The notes under the pieces: generated by a model | What the model was told of the DNA's origin: nothing | The model's input: the letters and a program-made list of their open reading frames with translations, nothing else | The model's database searches: none | Position numbers and translations under genes: made by a program | From: Thermosynechococcus sp. HN-54 | GTDB lineage: Bacteria > Cyanobacteriota > Cyanobacteriia > Thermosynechococcales > Thermosynechococcaceae | Assembly (NCBI RefSeq): GCF_023650955.1 | Contig: NZ_CP098039.1 | Coordinates: forward strand, 558,001-622,000 | DNA: 64,000 nt | Direction of reading: 5' to 3' | Shown here: one piece after another, positions 4,773 through 33,459 of the stretch | How positions within the stretch are numbered: the first letter of the stretch is position 1 | How the letters are laid out: every line of letters starts with the position of its first letter

Positions 4773-4781
4773 CTCAAATAG
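4773..4781. repeat. Target-site duplication, left copy
   Basis: CTCAAATAG lies directly outside the left inverted repeat of the IS4-type element; the identical copy at 5871-5879 lies outside the right repeat. It encodes L-F-E of the interrupted gene on the minus strand. Confidence 0.9.
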
Positions 4782-5870
4782 CAGAAGTGTTGAATTCTGC
4801 AACAAAACTTAACATCCTAAGTGACAAGTAGCTCTGGCTGCCAATCAAAGCTCCAATGCACTATCGAGCAGCGGCGACTCAGTTCCAGTTGCAAATATCG
4901 CAATTTGTCTAATAGCTTCCTGCCAAAGTATTCAGGTATCTCCATTAGCTCTAAAATTAAGTACCCAATCAAAACCATATAAATCTGATTTATCACCCCA
5001 TTCAAACTCTTCGTAATCAGCTTGTCTAATGATAAATGCATCTTTAGAAACTTCCATAAGTTCTCAATCCCCCACCGATGCCGATACAGCTCACTCACTT
5101 CCTCATCACTTAGATGCATTAGATTCGTCGCAATACGAAACTCTGTTCCATGCTCATCAAAAAATTGAACCACTCGGTATCTCTCATGATTGAGCTTCAT
5201 TCTCATGTTATTCTTGATACGCACAACAAATAAACACTTCCTCTCACTCAGCCGCTCTAAAAATCTCCAACTCGCAAACCCTCTATCCATGATGGCAACG
5301 GCATTCTCAGGGATCATTTCTAAAATCTCGTCTTGAAAGCTTAGGTCATGTCTCTCCCCAAAAGAGACTACTGCCTTACCCAGGATGTTCTCTGTTAAAT
5401 CAAATCCTGTAATTAACTTCACTTGATGGTATTTGTAGAACCAAAAGAGCTTACTCGTCAGGGTAATGACGGTTGAATCAATAGGAAACAGCATCAGACT
5501 TGAACAACGATGTCTCTTGCGAGCTTGAGACATGAGATGAGTGTAAATCCTCTCAAATAAGGTGGTTGTTCGAGTTTTGTTCGCCTTGGAAAACGTGGAC
5601 ATATCCACTGTAATCCCCGAATGATTCAAGCGATAAAATAAGGCTCTCATGCTGGTTAATCCTTGGTCGAGAATGTAGGTCAACCAGATTTTGAAGAACA
5701 ATTGAGAGTTGAGGACGGGGTAGTCGCAAGGGCTGAGCTGCTTGAGAATAGACTTGACAAGAACTGAAAAAGATGCCATAGTAAGCTGATTAATTTTTCT
5801 TCTTTTGAGGGAAGAATACGACATTTCTTCCCTTTTTTCTAGCCTCTTAAACTATCTTTCAACACTTCTG
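4782..5870 (-). mobile_element. Intact IS4-family insertion sequence, 1089 bp
   Basis: The ends are perfect 13-bp inverted repeats, CAGAAGTGTTGAA at 4782-4794 and its complement at 5858-5870. They are flanked by identical 9-bp repeats (CTCAAATAG). The single transposase gene is uninterrupted. Perfect ends, a perfect duplication and an open frame together point to a recent insertion. Base composition is clearly more AT-rich than the flanking housekeeping genes. Confidence 0.93.
4817..5824 (-). CDS. IS4-family transposase
   Basis: A 335-residue DDE transposase that would cut and join the ends of its own element. Candidate catalytic residues are D116 (PIDSTVI), D180 (IMDRGFA) and E254 in the YRHRWGIENLWKFLK block; the latter has the Y-(2)-R-(3)-E-(6)-K spacing typical of IS4 enzymes. 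The frame is complete from ATG at 5824 to the stop 35 bases from the left inverted repeat, so the enzyme is probably active. It is transcribed in the same direction as the methyltransferase gene it interrupts. Confidence 0.93.
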   Translation of the reverse strand: MSYSSLKRRKINQLTMASFSVLVKSILKQLSPCDYPVLNSQLFFKIWLTYILDQGLTSMRALFYRLNHSGITVDMSTFSKANKTRTTTLFERIYTHLMSQARKRHRCSSLMLFPIDSTVITLTSKLFWFYKYHQVKLITGFDLTENILGKAVVSFGERHDLSFQDEILEMIPENAVAIMDRGFASWRFLERLSERKCLFVVRIKNNMRMKLNHERYRVVQFFDEHGTEFRIATNLMHLSDEEVSELYRHRWGIENLWKFLKMHLSLDKLITKSLNGVINQIYMVLIGYLILELMEIPEYFGRKLLDKLRYLQLELSRRCSIVHWSFDWQPELLVT

Positions 5871-22329: not shown

Positions 22330-22701
22330 ATGAATCCTAAAACCATTGCTGCTCCTCATCCCCATCATCCCGAAGCGTTGGCAAGGGCAAGCGATCGCCT
22401 GCTCTCTACGGAAAAAGCCCAACGGATGGCGCAATTTTTTGGCCTGCTGGCTGATGCGAATCGGTTGCGAATTGTGGCCTTGCTTGCCCAAGGGGAGTTC
22501 TGTGTCGGCGATATTGCCGTGGCATTAGACATGAGTGAATCAGCCGTCTCCCACCAGTTACGGATACTCAAGGCCATGCGACTGGTGAGTTTCCGTCGCC
22601 AAGGACGACATATCTTTTACCAATTGCTGGATCACCACGTGCTGGCGCTCTATGAGGCGGTGGCGGAACACTTAGATGAGGAAGATTCAGAAACAGCCTA
22701 G
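22330..22701 (+). CDS. smtB: ArsR/SmtB-family zinc-responsive repressor
   Basis: A 123-residue winged-helix repressor that leaves DNA when zinc binds. The recognition helix region is MSESAVSHQLRILKAM. The alpha-5 sensory site is conserved (D101, H103, H114, E117) and so is the cysteine of the alpha-3 site (C58), each offset by three from SmtB of Synechococcus. The N-terminus is His-rich (HPHHPE), a further possible zinc ligand set. It probably represses smtA and itself through the operator at 22268-22291. Confidence 0.94.
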   Translation: MNPKTIAAPHPHHPEALARASDRLLSTEKAQRMAQFFGLLADANRLRIVALLAQGEFCVGDIAVALDMSESAVSHQLRILKAMRLVSFRRQGRHIFYQLLDHHVLALYEAVAEHLDEEDSETA

Positions 22702-23165
22702 GGAGAAGGGCAAGTCGGTGGCGAGGCAATGCTGGAACCCGAAGAAGCGGCTTCTAAAATTTGGGTTGTGGTCAATGTTGTGTACGTGGCGTAGGTGCAG
22801 CCTGTGTACGCTTTCAATTCTAGACGCTCAGGGGTGGCTTGGAATTCCGCGTAGTTACTATTCGCAACGGTGATCCCGTAATCATAGTCGGGCGTATCAC
22901 TAAAGCCGATTTGTAAACTTGCGATGTCAGTGGTGAATGTGGGATTGGCTAAACGGTAGGCTTGCTGGGCACGGTTCACGGCGCCAATATTGGTTTTGGC
23001 TTGAGATTCACGGGCTTTGGTGGCTTGATTCAACATTGAGGGGAGGGCGATCGCCGCCAAAATCGCAATAATAATGACAACGACGAGCAGTTCAATGAGG
23101 GTAAAGCCCTTGGAGAGGATGAGCGATCGGTAGAGCCAAGGCAGGTTGGAACGATAAGGAGACAT
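22698..23165 (-). CDS. Type IV pilin-like protein
   Basis: A 155-residue prepilin. The leader ends in KG and is followed by FTLIELLVVVIIIAILAAIALPSM, the class III signal and N-terminal helix that prepilin peptidase PilD cleaves and methylates. The globular part has two cysteines near the C-terminus that could form the pilin D-loop disulfide. It could be a major pilin (PilA) or a minor pilin or pseudopilin. It is convergent with smtB, overlapping it by four bases. Confidence 0.92.
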   Translation of the reverse strand: MSPYRSNLPWLYRSLILSKGFTLIELLVVVIIIAILAAIALPSMLNQATKARESQAKTNIGAVNRAQQAYRLANPTFTTDIASLQIGFSDTPDYDYGITVANSNYAEFQATPERLELKAYTGCTYATYTTLTTTQILEAASSGSSIASPPTCPSP

Positions 23166-23241: not shown

Positions 23242-26200
23242 CTATAACCCCAGTAGTTTTTTCTTGGCCGCTTGGAACTCCGCTTCTGAGAGTAGCCCCT
23301 GCTGGTACATGGCCATGAGTTGTTGCAGTTGCTCTAGGCCAGAGGAACTCGCCGAAGCAGTGGTTTCAGATGTTGGTTCAGGTTGGGGTGGGGATGGTTC
23401 AGGGACAGGGGGCGTTGGCGTGGGGCTAGGGGTTGTAGGTGCCAATTGAGCCAATTGGTAGGTTCGGATTACCTCTTGGAGAATGGCGGCTTCCCGCTTG
23501 TATTCAAGGCTATCGCGCCCCCCAGCTTTATGGAGTTCTTCCTCGCGTCGCTTCAAATAGTTCAGTAAATGCTCATAGAGAGCTTGCTTTTGTTCTGGGG
23601 TTTCGGCTGCTTTGAGGATAAGCGTGACTTGGCGCTGAATTTCCTCTAAGTCGGGACGGCAGGCCAGTACCTCTAGGACTTGGGTCACTTCCTCCCAGTT
23701 GGCGGCAATGTCCACATCTTCAAGGCCAACGGCCGTATGGCGCGTATAGCGGATTGTGGCTTCACGGGTAGCACGGTTTTCCGCTTGTTTGAGAACATTA
23801 AGGGCGCGCGCAGTTACCACGAGTTTCAAAATCTGTGGGTTTTCTGGGAACACATCCCAGAAGGGGGAATCCTTTTGTAGATGGACAGGGATAGGTAGAT
23901 CGCGGTTTTCCCCGCGCAGGCGGGCACGTTTGGCAGTAATCATTTGGCCTCGCCAATCTTGATAGGACTGGCGTAGTTCGGGCATGCCCTCAATACAGCG
24001 CAATGAAAAGCCGCCCATCTCTTGGACAAAGACAATCCGATGGCGCTCGCGATCGCCCAAGGGCTTGATATCATCACTCGTAATACTTTGGCCGTTGGGT
24101 TTGACGAGGTTTTTGAGCAGGGGAATCAGTTTTTTCGCAGCCAAATCGGTAGTATTTTCACCGCCGACAATGGCGATATTCGTATTCACCGAGGGGGTAA
24201 AGCCAGCATCGCGCCCACTCATGACCGCTTGGGAGAGCAACAATAAGGGCTTTGATTTCTGGTAGGCCATGCGCAGGACACTGAGGATGTCTCCTTCATC
24301 GTTGCGATAAACCTGCAACAGGCGATCGCAGGCGGTGAGATCCCGCACAAGGCGGCTTTCTTCTGGCGCGTTTTGCACGGTGCGCTGTACCGTTTCTTGG
24401 ATAATCTCCCGCAAGTCACTCTCTTGAACATCCGCCAGTTGTGCCAAATCTAATAAACGCATGACCTCATTGGCAGTGCGGGTTTCCTTCCAGAGGGGAC
24501 TGGCCTCTCGCAACACCGTTGTTGCCGTGGTGGTACAGAGTTGATTGAGACCAATGGCAAATGTGGACTGCACCCCGGTATTGGCACCTGCGTAGCGCTC
24601 TACTAGGTCTTGGTAAAGGTCATTGAGTTCTTGGCGATCGTAGAGCTTGACGCCGTTGATCCGCAGGGCATCAGCACTATCGGCTTGACTATCGGCCATT
24701 GCCTTGAAGCTATCCCGTAAATTCAGGAGCCGCTGGTTGAGTTTGGCAAGGCGCGCTTCCATTCCCTGGAGCCACTCTTCTAGCTTGGTCAGCACCTCTT
24801 TGGCCAGAAAGCGGGCTTTGGCTTGAATGATGGCATTGAAACTACCCTCAATTCCCTCTAGAGCCTGCTGACAAAATTCCTCCATTTTTGCTTGCTTGGA
24901 AATGCCAAAGAGCTGACTAAAGTGCCGGATGTCTTGGAGGGCATTGTCGTATTGCTGATAACGATTGGTGATATTGGGATGCCAAGTTTGCTGGATTTCA
25001 CGGTCATATTTTTCCTTTTGGCTCATAAAGATTTGGCGAATTTGCAGCAGAAAGGCATTGGCAAACTTTGGCCCGCGATTGCGATCCTCAACGATGCGGT
25101 AGAACTCCTCCTCAAGACTTTGGCGAGCTTGCTGGATGATCTGATTGCGGTTGTCGTACATGCGTTGCAAAAAGTCACCGTGGAGGCGCTCATCGGGGCT
25201 ATGTTCGCGCAAGTGGGCAGCACGGTAATTGTCCACCTGTTCACTGAGCCAAGGCACAAACTGCAAAATTTTCCCCCTTTCAGCTCCAATCATGCCCGCT
25301 ACTCCCTGTTGGGTACATTCAAGGAGGTTTTCACGGCTAATTTGGTTGCGCAGCTCATTCACCCAGCGGGAGATTTCTTGCATGTAGGGGCGATCGCCCG
25401 CCGCTGCTAGAGCCAAGACCAAATCCATATCCAGTAGGTTCATGGGTTTTAGGAGGCTCTGCGTCACCTCCAAGAGTTGCGGTGGCAGTTGTACGGACTC
25501 GTTGAGCCACCAGCTCATAAAGTCTTGGCAGAGGCGATAGGTCAAGGAGGCGCGAATTTGGGCAATGGGAATTTCGACACTGGAGAGGCCAAAGGCCATG
25601 AAGTTTTTGGGATAGCCTCGACCCCCGGCATCCTGAGAGGCCCAAGCGGCCTTAATGTTGTCACGGATCGAGCGTTTGTGGGGAGCAAAGTCGGAGGTGA
25701 GATCCAAAAAGATATTTTGAGCAATCATTTCGCGGATCTCATCGAGCTTGAATTCACTCTCGCCGTTTTTGGTGCCTACGAGGTAGGTAAAGTCAAAGGG
25801 GGGCGAGTTGTAGCGAACTTCATCATTGAGACTACTGCTAAATTGGGCCATGTACTCAGTGCGGTAGTCAGAAAAATAACTGAGTTCCATCAGGGCGGCG
25901 TAGCCATTGGCCAGCACGCGATCGCCAACACTAATGGCGGCAAAGGCATTGGGCATGGGCACAATTGCAGTTATAAGGGGACTCGACTGCCCCTTGAGCC
26001 AGTGGCGCACACAATAGCCGAGGTCAATGAGCATACCGCTACCCGTGCCCCCCGAGAGGGAACCGGTAATAAAGACATTGAGGCTACTATTGTTGACCTT
26101 CAGCCCATAGCGGCTCTGCATGAAGGCTTCATGGCCTTTGACGCGATCGCTCGCCGCTTGGAATTTTTGCTGAATGGCATGGTAATTGCAAAAGAAGGCA

Positions 26201-26574
26201 AACCGCCCACAGGCACGAATTTGTCCGGCTCCTGCCTCTAAAGCCGTAATGTTGCGCTCTAATTCCTTGGGAAACCAAGAGGCAATCCAAGGGTAGTTGT
26301 CAAGGTTTTGAATAATTTGCTGCACGTTTTTGCCACTGACACTGGCCCAGTGTTTTTCGTTGTCCTTCAGGGGAGAACCCGCTGCGAGGGGGTTGCTCAC
26401 TTTGTAGTCGCGATCGGTGTCAATGGCGAGAAAACTAATCACGGGAAACTGTTTTAGGCTACCGTAGGTTTCCTCAACTAACCGCCGCACCCGCGATAGC
26501 ACTTCAATGCCTGTACCACCTACGCCAACAATCACTGTCGGAACAATGGACTTTTCCTCAACCTGTGCAGGCAT
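23242..26574 (-). CDS. Giant tubulin-like protein with C-terminal SHOCT motif
   Basis: A 1110-residue protein of the bacterial tubulin-like (Tubulin_2) group. The N-terminus has a nucleotide-binding start (VIVGVGGTGIEVLSRVRRLV) and the tubulin/FtsZ signature loop as ITGSLSGGTGSGMLIDLGY near residues 170-188, expected to bind GTP. A long helical region (about 420-800) follows. Near the C-terminus come a Pro/Thr-rich linker and a SHOCT-type ending (LEQLQQLMAMYQQGLLSEAEFQAAKKKLLGL). SHOCT modules are linked to oligomerisation. Its role is unknown. It lies next to a pilin gene and a chemosensory operon on the same strand, but separated from the latter by 108 bases. Confidence 0.85.
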   Translation of the reverse strand: MPAQVEEKSIVPTVIVGVGGTGIEVLSRVRRLVEETYGSLKQFPVISFLAIDTDRDYKVSNPLAAGSPLKDNEKHWASVSGKNVQQIIQNLDNYPWIASWFPKELERNITALEAGAGQIRACGRFAFFCNYHAIQQKFQAASDRVKGHEAFMQSRYGLKVNNSSLNVFITGSLSGGTGSGMLIDLGYCVRHWLKGQSSPLITAIVPMPNAFAAISVGDRVLANGYAALMELSYFSDYRTEYMAQFSSSLNDEVRYNSPPFDFTYLVGTKNGESEFKLDEIREMIAQNIFLDLTSDFAPHKRSIRDNIKAAWASQDAGGRGYPKNFMAFGLSSVEIPIAQIRASLTYRLCQDFMSWWLNESVQLPPQLLEVTQSLLKPMNLLDMDLVLALAAAGDRPYMQEISRWVNELRNQISRENLLECTQQGVAGMIGAERGKILQFVPWLSEQVDNYRAAHLREHSPDERLHGDFLQRMYDNRNQIIQQARQSLEEEFYRIVEDRNRGPKFANAFLLQIRQIFMSQKEKYDREIQQTWHPNITNRYQQYDNALQDIRHFSQLFGISKQAKMEEFCQQALEGIEGSFNAIIQAKARFLAKEVLTKLEEWLQGMEARLAKLNQRLLNLRDSFKAMADSQADSADALRINGVKLYDRQELNDLYQDLVERYAGANTGVQSTFAIGLNQLCTTTATTVLREASPLWKETRTANEVMRLLDLAQLADVQESDLREIIQETVQRTVQNAPEESRLVRDLTACDRLLQVYRNDEGDILSVLRMAYQKSKPLLLLSQAVMSGRDAGFTPSVNTNIAIVGGENTTDLAAKKLIPLLKNLVKPNGQSITSDDIKPLGDRERHRIVFVQEMGGFSLRCIEGMPELRQSYQDWRGQMITAKRARLRGENRDLPIPVHLQKDSPFWDVFPENPQILKLVVTARALNVLKQAENRATREATIRYTRHTAVGLEDVDIAANWEEVTQVLEVLACRPDLEEIQRQVTLILKAAETPEQKQALYEHLLNYLKRREEELHKAGGRDSLEYKREAAILQEVIRTYQLAQLAPTTPSPTPTPPVPEPSPPQPEPTSETTASASSSGLEQLQQLMAMYQQGLLSEAEFQAAKKKLLGL

Positions 26575-26682
26575 GATTCCAGTCTCCGTGACAAGTCATC
26601 CCCATCCTAGCAAGGATGTCCGCGAAATCTGGTGATCGCAATGTTTGATAAAAAATTTTTGCAGCAATACAATCTGATAGTT

Positions 26683-29292
26683 TTATCCGCTGAGCGTCAC
26701 TACAGCAGCAGGACGACCTGCAAGCAGTTGGGTCACCGTTTGCAATAACCCTTGGGGTTGAAAGGGCTTGGTAATGTAACCATTGGCACCCAGTTGAAAG
26801 GCTTTTTGGCGGTGGGTGTCCCCTCCCCGTGACGTTAACATTGCGACCGGTAAATGGCGTAAGCGCCCCGAAAGACGAATCGCCTCTAGCAAACCATAGC
26901 CATCGAGGCGGGGCATCTCGATATCGGTGATCACAAGGGACACCTGATCCCCTTGGCCAAGGAGAAAATCCAATGCTTCCTTGCCATCGCGGCATTGCAC
27001 GACATCGTAGCCCGCCTGCCGCAGCACACGATCCAAGAGCCGTCGCACAGCAATCGAATCATCAACAATCAGCACTTGGGGTATGGTGCGCTGCCGAGCT
27101 GTGGCTGTCACTAGGGAGGCCGGTACCTCCATGGGCGTGAGCAGCACTGTAAAGTTGTCGGGAGCCAGAACTGGCGCCACTTCACCGCTTCCCAGAACCG
27201 TACACCCCATGATGTAGGGGGGCACAGGTACCGTTTGATCAAAGGGTTTGACCACCAGCTCTCGCTCGGCAATGAGGTAGTTCACTGCCAAGGCCACCGC
27301 CTGACCGGCGACATCCACAACCACACCCACACCAAGGGGCTGGTTTGGGGCACTCAGGGGACGCTGATAGGGCAAGAATTGATGCAGTGGATACAAGGGG
27401 ATAGATTGTCCTTGCCACTCAATGGTGGCGCTGGGGTGGCGAATATCTGTGTATTCCTTCAGGGCAATGACTTCGCGGATACTCAGATCTGGGATGGCCA
27501 AGGTTAGCTCCCCGACTTGACACAGCACCATGGGCAGCAGACTGAGCGTCAAGGGGAGAGTAAGCGTAAAGGTCGTTCCCCGCTGGGGTTCAGTACTAAT
27601 CTGAAGGCGCCCCCGCGATCGCTGGACTTGCTCGCGCACCACATCCAATCCCACCCCCCGACCGGAAAGATGACTCACCTGCTTGGCGGTTGAAAACCCC
27701 GGTACGAAGAGAAATTCCAAAATCTGCTCGCAGCTCAGGTGGGGAACTTTTTCGGGAGAGCAGAGCTTGAGTTCAACGGCCTTTTGGCTGACACGTTGGA
27801 GATCAATCCCCCGACCATCATCGGCTACCTGAATTTCCACGGCATTCCCCCACAGTCGTGCTCGTAGCCAAATCGTTCCAGTGGGGGACTTCCCCAATTG
27901 TTGCCGCTCTTGGGGAAGCTCAAGGCCATGGTCAAAGGCATTGCGCACGAGATGGGTCAAGGGTGCCTTGAGTTGCTGCAAAATCACTTGATCCACAAGG
28001 GTATCGCCCCCCTCAATCACCAGTTGAACCAGTTTATGGTGGCGATCGCCCAAGGTTTGCACAGCGGTCACAAACTTTTCTGCCAGTTGCCGAAAGGGCA
28101 CCAAGCGGGAATTTGTCAGTTCACCGTACAGACTGTTTAAGTGCTGGCGGTTGAGATCAAGGGCTTCTTGGAGATCGCGGTTGAGCAGATCAATATCAGC
28201 GCCTGTCTCCTGAATCCGCACCAGCAATTCTTGAAAATCTTGGAGCGCGGTGTGCAGTTCTGTGTAGCGGTCAAATTGCAGGGCATCAAAGTCACTATGA
28301 CCATTCGCAGCTAAACCTCGACTCCCAAGGGGGGTGGCCAAGCGATCGTAGCAGGTCTGCACCTGATCGCGAATGGGGCGAAATTGCTCAAGGCGGTGCT
28401 TAAGTTCGCGATTGGCACGCAAAAATTGCTGTTGATAGAGGGTGAGGCGCTCTTGGCCAATGAGCAATTCACTGACGGTGTTGCCTAAGCGTTCCAGCTT
28501 ACTGACAGGAATCCGCAGGTAATTGTCTTCTAAGGGCGCTGTCTCAGGAACTGCAGGGGGGGTAGGGGTCGGTAACTTGGCTAGTTCTGCCTGCTGCAAT
28601 TGCCGAAACTCAGTGACAACGGCGGGCACTAATTCCCCAAGGGGCAAATCCGCTGCGAGCTTCGGTAATTCTGCAGCCAGTTGCTGCAACCAAGGAATGG
28701 CGTACTGCTCCGCGAGGGTTTGGGTGGTGCCAATCAGGTGGGCTAAGGCAGTCTCCCGCTCGGCATCCGTGGCACTTGCCTCTAGAGTCTGTAGGGATTC
28801 CTCAAGGGTCTGGGTCAAAGCGGTGCGTAAATCGGGAGCAGCAGGGGTGGCTGCTGAGGGTGCTGAGACTGTTCCTAGGAGTTCTGTCAGTGCCTCAAGG
28901 AGGGCTTGGTAAAGCGGTGTGGGCATTAGGGAATGGTTTTGTTTGGCTGCCGCGAGGAGTTCTTGAGCTTGTTCAATACCCTGCACTAGGAGCCTGTGGG
29001 CACGGGGGCGATCCCCCATGCGACCCTCTTTGAGGGCTTCCAGAACATCCTCTAGGCGATGGCACAAGCCCTGTAGCTCACTGAGTTGGGCAATCCCAGC
29101 CCCTCCCTTGAGGGAATGCGCCGCCCGCATCAGGGTGTTGTAATCCTCAGCCGTATAGTGACGCTCAGGATCAGTCGCGACCTGCTCTGCCCATTGTTCG
29201 AGAAGTAGTAAATACTCCGGCGCATCCTCGTAAAGGAAGCAATGGCGTGCCTCTTGGGTAATGGCATCAAGGTCGGCAGCATTGAGGGTCAT
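26683..29292 (-). CDS. CheA-type hybrid histidine kinase with receiver
   Basis: An 869-residue kinase that relays signals from the MCP. Domains in order: Hpt with phospho-accepting H59 (AAHSLKGGAG); a linker; the dimerisation helices; the HATPase (VRNAFDHGLE, VADDGRGID, GRGVGLDVV); a CheW-like domain; and a C-terminal receiver with acceptor Asp in LVITDIEMPRLDGY and Lys in ITKPF. It ends the five-gene operon, 13 bases after the MCP gene. By order and architecture it matches PixL/PilL-like kinases of cyanobacterial phototaxis and pilus systems. Confidence 0.93.
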   Translation of the reverse strand: MTLNAADLDAITQEARHCFLYEDAPEYLLLLEQWAEQVATDPERHYTAEDYNTLMRAAHSLKGGAGIAQLSELQGLCHRLEDVLEALKEGRMGDRPRAHRLLVQGIEQAQELLAAAKQNHSLMPTPLYQALLEALTELLGTVSAPSAATPAAPDLRTALTQTLEESLQTLEASATDAERETALAHLIGTTQTLAEQYAIPWLQQLAAELPKLAADLPLGELVPAVVTEFRQLQQAELAKLPTPTPPAVPETAPLEDNYLRIPVSKLERLGNTVSELLIGQERLTLYQQQFLRANRELKHRLEQFRPIRDQVQTCYDRLATPLGSRGLAANGHSDFDALQFDRYTELHTALQDFQELLVRIQETGADIDLLNRDLQEALDLNRQHLNSLYGELTNSRLVPFRQLAEKFVTAVQTLGDRHHKLVQLVIEGGDTLVDQVILQQLKAPLTHLVRNAFDHGLELPQERQQLGKSPTGTIWLRARLWGNAVEIQVADDGRGIDLQRVSQKAVELKLCSPEKVPHLSCEQILEFLFVPGFSTAKQVSHLSGRGVGLDVVREQVQRSRGRLQISTEPQRGTTFTLTLPLTLSLLPMVLCQVGELTLAIPDLSIREVIALKEYTDIRHPSATIEWQGQSIPLYPLHQFLPYQRPLSAPNQPLGVGVVVDVAGQAVALAVNYLIAERELVVKPFDQTVPVPPYIMGCTVLGSGEVAPVLAPDNFTVLLTPMEVPASLVTATARQRTIPQVLIVDDSIAVRRLLDRVLRQAGYDVVQCRDGKEALDFLLGQGDQVSLVITDIEMPRLDGYGLLEAIRLSGRLRHLPVAMLTSRGGDTHRQKAFQLGANGYITKPFQPQGLLQTVTQLLAGRPAAVVTLSG

Positions 29293-29305
29293 AGACTACC
29301 CACCC

Positions 29306-30868
29306 TTAAGCATCCACACGGAACCGCGATACAGAGGCTTGCAGTTCTGCGGCAACAGCCACTAGGCTTTCCATAGCATCCACCACAGCAGCAGCGGCTG
29401 AAGTTGTTGTTTGTGCCATCTGGGCAACCCCCTGCATAATCTGCGTCACTTCTGCGGCCGTGGACGTTTGGGAAGCAGTACGCTCAGAAATCATTTGCAG
29501 CCGTGAATCAATCTGCTGGTTGAGGCGAGCGAGTCCCTGTAATGTTGCTTTGGTTTGACTCACCAACTGGGTGCCCTTGACCACCTGCGCCGTACTGCCC
29601 TCCATTTCCTGAAGCACCTCAGCCGTCTCCTGCTGAATCCCCGTCACCAACTGCTCAATATCCCGCGCTGAATCGGTCACCCGCTCGGCCAAGCGGCGCA
29701 CCTCATCGGCCACCACCCGAAAGCCTTGGCCATGTTCCCCGGCGCGTGCGGCTTCAATCGAGGCATTAAAGGCCAAAAGGTTGGTTTTCTCAGAGATGCT
29801 GGAGATGATGTTGATGATTTTGGAGATCTCTTGGGAGGATTCAGCGAGGCGTTTCATTTTCTTGGCGGTGTCGGCCACACTGAGGCGGATATTTTCCATA
29901 CTCTCCACGGTGGTGTCCATGGTTGCATCCCCCAATTGGGCTGCCGTCAACCCCTCCGCGGCGATCGCGGCTGCTTCTTGGGCAGAATTGGCGACTGCTT
30001 GCACTGAGGTGGCCATCCTCTCAACCGCTTCTACGCTGCGATCAATGTCGGCAGCTTGCTGGGTTGCCCCTGCCACAAGTCCGGCGATCGCCTCTTGGGT
30101 GGTTTGGGCAGCGGCCTGGACTTGGTTGGCAGCGGTCTGGACTTGCACGACAATTTGCCGCAAACTGCGTACCGTGGCATTGAAGGCATCGGCAATGGAT
30201 CCCATTTCCCCTTCGTCCACCTTGGCGCGGACGGTGAGGTCTCCCCGCTGTGCCCCTTCAATATCCAACAGTAGGTTAATTACCGCCTCCTGCATTTTCA
30301 TCCGCTCTTGGCGCTGCCGCTGTATCTCTGCTTGGCGTTGGGTTTCAAGAGTTTGGATCTGGTCTTGCTGCTGTTGCAGTTGCGCCACCAAGGCAGCAAT
30401 CCCTTGGCCAATGGCTGCTAGTTGGGGATCGCTGAACTCGGGCAAGGGTGTGTCCCACTGTTGCTGATGGAGTTGTCCAAGCCAAGCCTCTAGCGTATGC
30501 AACCCTTGCCGCAGCTGTTTGATTTGGCCACGCCCCAAGGGGATGGGCGTCGGCACAGGCGGAGGACTCGGCGGCGGGGGGGCTGGTATCGGTTGGACAG
30601 TAGGGCTTCCCTGCAACAAAGCCAAGGCATTGCGGGCACTTTGGCCAAAAATTCCCTGATCCGCATCGGCGATCGCCTGATAGAGGGCTTCAGCGGCGCC
30701 AATCTCACCGGCTTGCTCTAAAGCGGTGGCCAAGGATAACTGTAGCAAACGATCCGTTGGCTCCTCCTCAAGCAGAGCACGCAGGGTCGGGATATCCTGA
30801 GTGAGAATGGCATTGAAGTAGCGATCGCTCAGGGAGGTGGTGGGGGTAGAATTCGCAAGGGAGGTCAT
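29306..30868 (-). CDS. Soluble methyl-accepting chemotaxis protein
   Basis: A 520-residue receptor. There is no membrane helix. The N-terminus (1-90) looks like a short TPR-type helical unit, followed by a Pro-rich linker ([16 protein letters not shown]), a coiled coil, a HAMP-like stretch ([33 protein letters not shown]) and a full MCP signalling domain with the hairpin tip [36 protein letters not shown]. It resembles the signalling half of PilJ, but lacks a membrane or GAF photosensory input. The ATG overlaps the CheW stop by four bases. Confidence 0.92.
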
Positions 30869-31362
30869 AGGGCAGAGGAGGGTGAACGGGCTATACTTGC
30901 AAAAATGGCCTCAACATTCAATAGTAAAATCGGTACACGATCAAACTGCACAAACCCCTGCAAGTACTGCTGCACCTGCCGTTGAAGTCGCTGGGGCACG
31001 GGCTGCTGCTTTTCGGGCGGAACATGGATGATCCCCCGCAGTTGACTGACGACACAGGCGAGTTGACGCGGCGATGATCTGTCCGTGTCTCGCATGACTA
31101 GTGCCGTCCAACGTTGGTGGGGCGATCGCCCCCAATCATGCTGCACCCCCAGCAATTGCAATAGGTCGAGCATCCATAATAACCGCCCCCGCTGGTTACT
31201 AATGCCCAAAAGGGCAGCTGAAACCCCCGGCATCAGACAAATATCCCGTGGCTCTAGGCTAAAGACCTCAGCGGTTTGCTCAAGGGGAATCGCTACATTC
31301 ACCCGTCGGGGAAGCTCCACATGAAAGTATTCTTGAATTGCCGGCGTACTCACAGGCATCAT
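30865..31362 (-). CDS. CheW-like coupling protein
   Basis: A 165-residue CheW-fold protein that couples the MCP to the CheA kinase. The [27 protein letters not shown] stretch and the [19 protein letters not shown] strand are typical. It corresponds by position to PixI/PilI of related operons. It overlaps the MCP gene by ATGA and follows the CheY gene by 19 bases. Confidence 0.88.
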
Positions 31363-31381
31363 TTCAAATTAGGACTTCAAA

Positions 31382-31756
31382 TTAAGACAGCGGCGGTAGG
31401 TATTCGTTGATGGTTTCAATCAACTCTTCGGGTTCAAAGGGCTTGGTAATGTAGGCATTGCCCCCCTGACGCAATGCCCAGAATCGATCAAAGTCCTGAT
31501 CCTTAGAAGAGCAAAAGATAATCGGTACTGTCTTGAGGAGGGGGTTTGCCCGCACTTCCCGACACAGTTCCAAACCATTGACGCCGGGCATCACAATATC
31601 AAGCACAATCAAATCGGGGGGCTGATGACTGGCCAACCATTCCATTGCTTTTTCTGCTGTTTCCGCCACGTGGGTTTGGTGTCCCAATTTCTCTAAAATT
31701 GAGACAATCATGGTTTGCTCTGTGCGGGAATCCTCAACGACTAGCACCTGCTTCAT
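31382..31756 (-). CDS. CheY/PilH-like single-domain response regulator
   Basis: A 124-residue receiver: acidic pocket E8-D9 (VVEDSR), phospho-acceptor in LIVLDIVMPGVNG, and the conserved Lys in ITKPFEPEEL. No output domain. It probably acts as a diffusible output or phosphate sink of the operon, as PixH/PilH do. It overlaps the upstream regulator gene by four bases. Confidence 0.92.
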   Translation of the reverse strand: MKQVLVVEDSRTEQTMIVSILEKLGHQTHVAETAEKAMEWLASHQPPDLIVLDIVMPGVNGLELCREVRANPLLKTVPIIFCSSKDQDFDRFWALRQGGNAYITKPFEPEELIETINEYLPPLS

Positions 31757-32898
31757 GAATGACTCTCCATCGCCGCAGTCTGGGTAAATCGCTCTGCTAA
31801 CGATAGTAACTCCTGTGGGGTAAAGGGCTTCGTTAAATAATCCGTTGCACCCACCATGCGTGCCCGAATCCGATCCACTAACCCATCGCGCCCTGTGAGC
31901 ATGACCACTGGCACATCCTTAAGGGTTTCCGTCTGCCGCAGCTGACGGCACAGCTCGTAGCCATCCATTTCTGGCATCGAGATATCCATCAAGACTAAGT
32001 TAGGCTTGGTGTCATTGAGGGCACTCAGGGCATGGGTCGGCTCCATCAAGCCCAGTACCCGATAACCACAGGTCTCCAAAATGAGGCGGACGTTGCGCTG
32101 AATGGTGCGACTGTCGTCAATACAGGCGACAATGGGACGGGTATCACTAGTGGGCGCATTGTAGGGATGCTGAGCAATCAACCCATTCACGAGGGCGGGT
32201 TGCAGTAACTGGGCAGTGGCGATCGCCTCCATGCGCAATTGAGTCGCCACCTCATAGAGTACAGGTGTCTGCTCCAAGAGTTGAGGCAATGCAGCGGCAA
32301 TATCGCCGCCATAATCCATCGGCCACAGATCAGCGGGAATTCGCTCAGTGGTGGTGAGCACCAGCCGTTGCAGCGGCGAGTTCAAATAGGTGCGCACCTG
32401 TACCGCTTGGGTAATGGCTTGCCGCAGGTGACTCAGGGTTTGCTTGATCGGCACACAGAGCACCAAGTGATCGAGACCCGCCACTCGCTCCACCCGCACT
32501 GAGGCTTGGGGCATGGCAAAGATATGAACCAGCGCTTCTTGACTAAAGAGAAAGAGCAGCTTACGCAGTTGGGGAAGGGTCAATTGCCCCTGTTGCCAAA
32601 GACGACAGAGATACTGATACTCCGTTTCATCGGCTGCCAATGTGGTGCTGAGTTGGGGGCAATAGCGTTGACACAGGTAGTTGAAGCGTTCCTGATGCCC
32701 GACAGTGCTATTGGCGTAATGCAGTTGACCATTGCCGACATAGAGGTTCCAGCCGATGGAGGAATCCTTCGGATCGGTAAAGGTTAAGTGACCGGAGAGG
32801 CGATCGCCAATCACCTTTTGGATCACTCGTGCGGGAAATGCCAATGCTTTGTCGCCCACTTGCGCTACTGAACTTGACGTAGGTGTACTCGTCGTCAT
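31753..32898 (-). CDS. PatA/PixG-type response regulator
   Basis: About 381 residues. The N-terminal two thirds form a DUF4388/PATAN-type domain (ARVIQKVIGDRLSGHLTFTDP, then QLHYANSTVGHQERFNYL), which in relatives binds partner proteins at the pilus motor. The C-terminus is a receiver with IDDSRTIQRN, phospho-acceptor in LVLMDISMPEMDGY and Lys in LTKPF. It is the first gene of the operon, as pixG is in Synechocystis. ATG 32898 is preferred over an in-frame start 11 codons upstream. Confidence 0.9.
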   Translation of the reverse strand: MTTSTPTSSSVAQVGDKALAFPARVIQKVIGDRLSGHLTFTDPKDSSIGWNLYVGNGQLHYANSTVGHQERFNYLCQRYCPQLSTTLAADETEYQYLCRLWQQGQLTLPQLRKLLFLFSQEALVHIFAMPQASVRVERVAGLDHLVLCVPIKQTLSHLRQAITQAVQVRTYLNSPLQRLVLTTTERIPADLWPMDYGGDIAAALPQLLEQTPVLYEVATQLRMEAIATAQLLQPALVNGLIAQHPYNAPTSDTRPIVACIDDSRTIQRNVRLILETCGYRVLGLMEPTHALSALNDTKPNLVLMDISMPEMDGYELCRQLRQTETLKDVPVVMLTGRDGLVDRIRARMVGATDYLTKPFTPQELLSLAERFTQTAAMESHS

Positions 32899-33459
32899 AG
32901 AAGTCGTACCTTTGACAATCTGATAAACCACCGACTCAGCAACAGAGAACTACTGCGTTGAAGAACTCGTAAATTTTTTGGCACTGTTTGTGTCAGAGAA
33001 TTACCAGTACCCAATATTCAAACTTTGAACTTGTTTCAAAAGCAGGCTGGTTTGCCGCTTTTTTCTTAAGATCGAATGCCCCAAAATTCACTGTATGATA
33101 GGCTGCTACTCCTTATGATGTGCAGCCTCACCTTCGAGGAGCGCTGTCGCTACTCCCATCCTTCGAATCATACCCCCTCCCAATCTGTCGATTTTTCAGT
33201 ATTTTTGCTGTAATCCTTATTCTAAGCCTCGCGTCCCGTTGGAAAATGTATTCTACTTAACGCTTTTTGTCTAGACACCTGACACATTATATTAAGGAAA
33301 ACAGTTGAGGCGGATTCTAAAAGGGGGGCTTGATAAGTGTTGCAAAAGAGGCAATACTGATTTGATTATCTGATAGTAACAATAGCATCTATTGTACATA
33401 AAAGGGCAAAATGGCTTCTTTTTGCCTCTGCAACGTCAGCACACCGTAGGTTCGTTTTG
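32899..33459. other. 561-bp intergenic region without a gene
   Basis: No convincing coding frame is present. It holds the candidate operon promoter at 33011-33039 and two hairpins. One is AGGCTGC with GCAGCCT at 33100-33128, loop of 15. The other is GGCAAAA with TTTTGCC at about 33404-33426, in the leader of the BASS transporter gene. Neither hairpin has a clear T-run on the relevant strand. The long AT-rich spacing separates divergent transcription units. Confidence 0.6.
33011..33039 (-). promoter_or_regulatory. Candidate promoter of the chemosensory operon, palindromic spacer
   Basis: On the minus strand TTGAAA (33034-33039) and TATTGG (33011-33016) are 17 bases apart. The spacer contains a perfect 6-1-6 inverted repeat, TTCAAA-C-TTTGAA (33017-33029), which could bind a regulator. 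The transcript would begin about 107 bases before the PatA-type gene. Confidence 0.4.

Follow-up and report, generated by a model that had tools for sequence, protein, structure and literature searches.

The 1110-residue tubulin-like protein encoded in the stretch of Thermosynechococcus sp. HN-54 DNA analysed here (64,000 nucleotides, called the window) belongs to the FtsZl1 family, published in 2010. With a probability of about one in two, we read it as the cytosolic member, from the tubulin superfamily, of an envelope module of three proteins, the other two being a periplasmic-binding-protein (PBP) receptor-like membrane protein and a von Willebrand-type (vWA) membrane protein. Membership of FtsZl1 in the PBP/vWA module is well supported. 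The family is known; new are the PBP-vWA-tubulin module, whose genes are scattered in this genus, and a revised FtsZl1 fold from structure prediction.

The gene is an intact ATG-initiated ORF on the minus strand, located at C1:581245-584574 in the window's genome (G000). Pfam Tubulin_2 (PF13809) covered residues 14-352 (E=1.1e-113; 380.5 bits against a cut-off of 27), and canonical Tubulin (PF00091) matched weakly (E=0.0014). The protein had no match to FtsZ_C in Pfam and no family match in NCBIfam; the FtsZ_C domain of the same genome lies in a separate 427-codon frame, i.e. a distinct FtsZ. When compared with eight orthologues, the gene gave dN/dS of 0.045-0.079, which indicates strong purifying selection, with the tubulin domain lowest and the tail highest. 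The gene and the parts of its product are located in the window as follows.

23242..26574, minus strand: FtsZl1/Tubulin_2 protein, 1110 aa, stop codon included (ORF, Pfam, purifying selection).
25870..26535, minus strand: tubulin-type GTP-binding domain S1-H7, residues 14-235, with T1 (GVGGTG), T2-like IDTD, T4 (SGGTGSG) and the invariant P208 and N223 (Pfam Tubulin_2, alignments, structure).
26035..26055, minus strand: SGGTGSG (T4 loop), residues 174-180 (alignment).
25504..25869, minus strand: first half of the predicted C-terminal domain, S7-H9-S8-H10, residues 236-357 (from DSSP and structural alignment).
24205..25503, minus strand: predicted helical insertion of about 430 residues, residues 358-790 (model; boundaries approximate).
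23905..24204, minus strand: second half of the predicted C-terminal domain, S9-S10-H11, residues 791-890 (conservation, model, structural alignment).
23455..23904, minus strand: C-terminal mixed strand/helix region in the model, residues 891-1040, with no assigned family.
23251..23334, minus strand: SHOCT tail, residues 1081-1108 (Pfam).

Makarova and Koonin (2010; PMC2875224) described FtsZl1 as an FtsZ-like domain followed by a coiled coil and a helical C-terminus, and named Thermosynechococcus elongatus as a member. The window protein shares the domain, the length (about 1000-1100 aa), the helical body and the vWA link of that family (a link that is common but not obligatory), and in its model the helical region is followed by a further C-terminal domain. 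In PMC2875224 the T6-H7 elements and a tubulin-like C-terminal domain were not identified, and the S6-T7 region could not be fitted. In the literature that we searched, no experimental study of FtsZl1, PF13809 or the tll gene names was found; prediction papers were all that turned up, in line with the statement in the preliminary description of this DNA that such proteins are poorly studied. The same description had pointed to the SGGTGSG tubulin signature, the unusual size, a long helical body and a SHOCT tail, all of which were recovered here by alignment, ORF length, structure model and Pfam, respectively.

A search of solved structures by sequence gave chance matches only, all in the Pro-rich tail, such as one with interleukin-11 at E 0.04. 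We built a structure model of FtsZl1 from 69 homologues (mean pLDDT 86, pTM 0.72), and the tubulin-like domain that the preliminary description expected was present in it, with both GTPase and C-terminal topology. Foldseek placed CetZ and tubulins as the top matches with probability 1.0, and VIA-align superposed 311 of 342 residues of CetZ at 3.8 A with a Z of 24.5. Each of the 50 matches listed by VIA spanned from residue 10-11 to residue 865-912, with Z of 20-24.5. The order of elements assigned by DSSP was S8 (325-334), H10 (337-357), helices, S9 (795-803), S10 (846-856) and H11 (864-886). Outside residues 14-357, the best conserved 30-residue stretches fall at 835-876, i.e. S10-H11, where E852, F856, L858, R859 and Y871 are invariant. 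This peak of conservation is what a core fold predicts. The aligned chains themselves also end where the VIA alignments stop (residues 865-912), so the final elements of the tubulin fold would have to come from residues beyond 790.

From the model, the C-terminal domain of FtsZl1, 'missing' until now, seems to be present and to complete a tubulin/CetZ fold. It appears to be split between H10 and S9 by the helical insertion, which contains two long helices of 53 and 77 residues; this placement follows from the element order and the ranges of structural alignment, with approximate boundaries. A complete but split C-terminal domain is what would distinguish the present fold from the description of 2010. 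Since the family is suggested to keep the whole tubulin fold, its assembly could be tested by known FtsZ/tubulin methods. CetZ (3zid, 4b46, 4b45) is the closest solved fold, with 17% identity to FtsZl1, but it has neither the insertion, the C-terminal extension nor the SHOCT tail.

FtsZl1 shares with FtsZ a GTP-binding fold and its T1 and T4 loops; unlike FtsZ, it contains neither FtsZ_C nor the GxxNxDxxD T7 motif. SGGTGSG is nearly invariant in the alignment of 69 homologues. The T4 loop was found in 69/69 of them and the T1 loop in 66/69. In the T4 region, S172, G175, G176, T177, G178, S179 and G180 are invariant, as are P208, N223, Y225 and E230 further on. The T7 motif GxxNxDxxD/E was absent from its expected position after H7 in 69/69 homologues. 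Binding of GTP by FtsZl1 is likely, and FtsZ-like activated hydrolysis doubtful. With T7 lacking and an insertion that emerges from the fold between H10 and S9, FtsZl1 is unlikely to treadmill fast as the GTPase FtsZ does. In tubulin, the region between H10 and S9 is near the longitudinal contact.

The same features bear on the original proposal of 2010, in which FtsZl1 is a membrane-remodelling polymer whose filaments at the inner membrane bend or bud the membrane, helped by vWA and other accessory membrane proteins (Makarova and Koonin 2010). Consistent with it are the association with vWA and the predicted full tubulin fold, whose C-terminal domain is a requirement for filaments. The T7 catalytic motif is absent from the expected place, the big insertion is close to the longitudinal face, and the conserved partners described below include a ligand-binding receptor and no membrane-remodelling protein. 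We regard remodelling as possible but doubtful.

The SHOCT match at the end of the protein scored 26.8 bits in the whole protein against a cut-off of 27, and 30.2 bits when the tail was searched alone. A Pfam scan of 36 homologue tails found a zinc ribbon in 16, SHOCT in 8 and GYF_2 in 4, all at the equivalent position, and we read the tail as a putative exchangeable docking adaptor. FtsZl1 tails of clade C, such as L189:11007-11366 and L177:11022-11381, have another conserved helical tail (FLENDGEIDLEEQ...) and no zinc ribbon or SHOCT.

Clustering of flanking genes divided cyanobacterial FtsZl1 into several subfamilies, each with its own partners. The window protein is in clade A, where mostly a protein of about 300 residues is encoded directly upstream and a protein of about 530 residues before that. 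Outside Thermosynechococcaceae, 56 clade-A loci were counted, a few contigs being counted twice. The gene of the smaller partner (vWA) was upstream in 34 of them, within 0.8 kb in 30, and the gene of the larger partner (PBP) was upstream in 28, 24 of the Peripla_BP_6 type and four of the PBP_like_2 type. The gene order PBP-vWA-FtsZl1 was found in many genera.

The smaller partner has weak Pfam VWA matches and a DxSxS motif. In its confident model (pLDDT 86), a Rossmann-like domain is preceded by one TM-like helix and followed by two; this domain matches TFIIH p34, BatB and vWF A3 in structure, and the vWA fold is thus confirmed by prediction as well as by Pfam. Cys 156 and Cys 301 are invariant, and both would be periplasmic by the predicted topology. 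The larger partner contains a Cys-rich N-terminus, a TM segment, TPR and Peripla_BP_6 (Pfam). At L040:11374-12528, L082:7784-8986 and L131:6652-7785, the receptor has PBP_like_2 (PstS-like) where others have Peripla_BP_6, which looks like a swap of the sensor domain. At L119:5292-5669 and L122:8754-9131, a protein of about 125 aa with the membrane part is all that is left of the vWA partner; its vWA domain is lost, and the PBP and FtsZl1 genes are kept. A tandem pair of clade-A FtsZl1 genes lies 3' of a single vWA gene at L126:5614-12536 (G231), and its products might form a heteromeric pair. A candidate for a second upstream partner (318 aa, 7 loci) was rejected; by reading of its sequence it is a metallo-hydrolase-like neighbour in one Microcystis-like genus.

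In the window's genus the partners are dispersed, and the vWA gene is not adjacent to FtsZl1 in the window. Homologues of vWA (46-50% identity) and PBP (48-51%) were found at distant sites in 11/11 genomes of the genus. In the window's genome they are at C1:1482494-1483351 (vWA) and C1:2515426-2517021 (PBP), remote from FtsZl1. In G006, an incomplete genome of the same genus, both partners were found and FtsZl1 was not detected. Thermosynechococcaceae are nested within the operon-bearing clade of the FtsZl1 tree, a quick-method tree with starred support there and long branches elsewhere, so the dispersal in the genus looks derived. The displaced vWA gene of the genus lies in a region (L241:6618-11665; C1 about 1480600-1485700 in G000) whose content is conserved and includes dapF-like and DUF819 genes and a weak matrixin-like one.

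Of 386 genomes taken from the phylum, 24 contained clade-A FtsZl1 (>700 bits), and these cover ten GTDB families. PBP (>350 bits; next best 240) was found in 21/24 genomes with clade-A FtsZl1 and in 0/362 genomes without it (Fisher 9e-32, kinship ignored). The corresponding figures for vWA were 16/24 and 0/362 (Fisher 9e-23, kinship ignored), leaving out one weak partial match in G296. The exceptions were as follows: vWA was not detected in seven Microcystis-like genomes that kept FtsZl1 and PBP, neither partner was detected in the FtsZl1-positive G276, G231 and G414 have FtsZl1 with no PBP of the Peripla_BP_6 type, and the vWA match in G250/G337 is confined to the membrane part.

In the proposed module, the first component would be a membrane protein that crosses the membrane once (topology from sequence) and combines a Cys-rich N-terminus, TPR and a PBP receptor domain, the second a TM-vWA-TM-TM protein with its vWA domain predicted to be periplasmic, and the third FtsZl1, presumably binding GTP. 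The tail of FtsZl1, its long helical stalk or both may tether the protein at the inner membrane, and the PBP/vWA pair would control whether an FtsZl1 scaffold is formed or dismantled, such that a periplasmic signal alters GTP-dependent assembly on the cytosolic side. Orientation, GTP dependence and the flow of signal are inferred parts of this scheme. We hold more tentatively the specific form of a transmembrane signalling device, in which a periplasmic PBP ligand would act through vWA on how a tubulin homologue in the cytosol assembles with GTP; that the device is built on a tubulin with a helical stalk in its C-terminal domain is put forward just as tentatively.

A role in transport or signalling was already proposed by the reviewer Jekely (PMC2875224), who noted that the T. 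elongatus gene lies beside the PilA-like tll1019 and the Arthrospira gene beside a branched-chain amino-acid periplasmic component. That periplasmic (PBP) partner was dismissed in PMC2875224 as not conserved, whereas the PBP partner found here is conserved across genera and co-occurs with FtsZl1. In the dispute of 2010 between remodelling and transport or signalling, the present data favour the reviewer's side for the clade-A subfamily. Were PBP the real actor and FtsZl1 an accessory of nutrient uptake that clusters it, as Jekely's suggestion allows, the solute-binding family Peripla_BP_6 would be expected, and it is what we found. No recurrent permease or ATPase gene was noticed beside the subfamily, and the PBP is TM-anchored and TPR-bearing, unlike free solute-binding proteins, so that an uptake accessory seems quite improbable.

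Like the GTPase-centric conflict systems that Kaur et al. described in 2020 (PMC7159879), the envelope module combines a tubulin-domain protein with a membrane vWA protein whose vWA domain is outside (by prediction for the module). Such pairing, and the patchy occurrence in 24/386 genomes, would fit a role in conflict or immunity, as in their GTPase/tubulin/vWA systems. Unlike those systems, the window's genome has no match to GAP1-N2, and a PBP receptor replaces the FNIII and effector proteins. PADLOC models matched none of the module's components, which together with the lack of GAP1-N2 weakens the conflict reading, and the dispersed genes are retained genus-wide under strong purifying selection, unlike a mobile defence island. 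We consider this reading unlikely. For the envelope module, each of the two named partners has one gene, at a site of its own, in a genus of thermophilic cyanobacteria with small genomes, and the proposal is testable there.

As the preliminary description stated, a pilin gene and a chemosensory operon flank FtsZl1 in the window (Pfam). In addition, a conserved block lies upstream of the gene.

22698..23165, minus strand: pilin-like gene, type IV (Pilin_GH), a neighbour in some Thermosynechococcus and not a conserved partner beyond (Pfam, locus surveys).
26575..26620, minus strand: upstream block with invariant TTGCTAGGAT (orthologue comparison).
26683..32931, minus strand: chemosensory operon (PatA-like, CheY, CheW, MCP, CheA; Pfam, locus surveys).

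From these neighbours it had been guessed that the protein has a role in cell polarity or envelope organisation. In our gene-neighbour survey across cyanobacteria, cheA was adjacent in 6/10 and the pilin gene in 7/10 Thermosynechococcaceae loci, and each of them in 0/56 other loci of the same subfamily; all these adjacencies among the 66 subfamily loci are within Thermosynechococcus. The chemosensory operon adjoins FtsZl1 in G001, G003, G005 and G007, and is not beside it in G004 (95% identical protein), G002, G010 and the related genus G012. The preliminary description had named non-conserved neighbours as a ground for refuting its guess, and on that ground the guess fails; a role at the envelope is retained on the evidence of the vWA and PBP partners. 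FtsZl1 offers an example of how adjacency in a single genome can mislead.

Recruitment of Thermosynechococcus FtsZl1 to the adjoining chemosensory/type IV pilus apparatus, for cell polarity or phototaxis, would accord with its location on the same strand 108 bp from cheA and with the retention of this adjacency in six of the ten family loci. The adjacency is missing for the 95%-identical orthologue, G002, G010 and G012, and from all 56 loci outside the family, and the conserved upstream block persists where the operon is lacking; we consider recruitment very unlikely. The operon would rather adjoin FtsZl1 through rearrangement, and not as a conserved partner. The upstream block, which is about 45 bp long, lies 5' of the ATG and has the invariant TTGCTAGGAT, is probably FtsZl1's own promoter region, because it stays with the gene in orthologues where the operon is absent. 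Pattern scans for promoters and terminators gave results at chance level.

The genome also contains a second FtsZl1 gene, of clade B (C1 about 2655150-2659457 in G000; L033:9151-13458), which is broken near codon 491 by a 1,090-bp IS (DDE_Tnp_1 transposase) identical to the copy at 4781-5870 of the window. The break looks recent, since the gene on either side of it has kept 53-75% identity to intact relatives. Clade B has a stable four-gene order in 36/38 loci (L033, L034, L035 and L044 included): a protein of about 380 aa with no Pfam match, FtsZl1, a protein of about 560 aa and a weak OmpA-like protein of about 225 aa.
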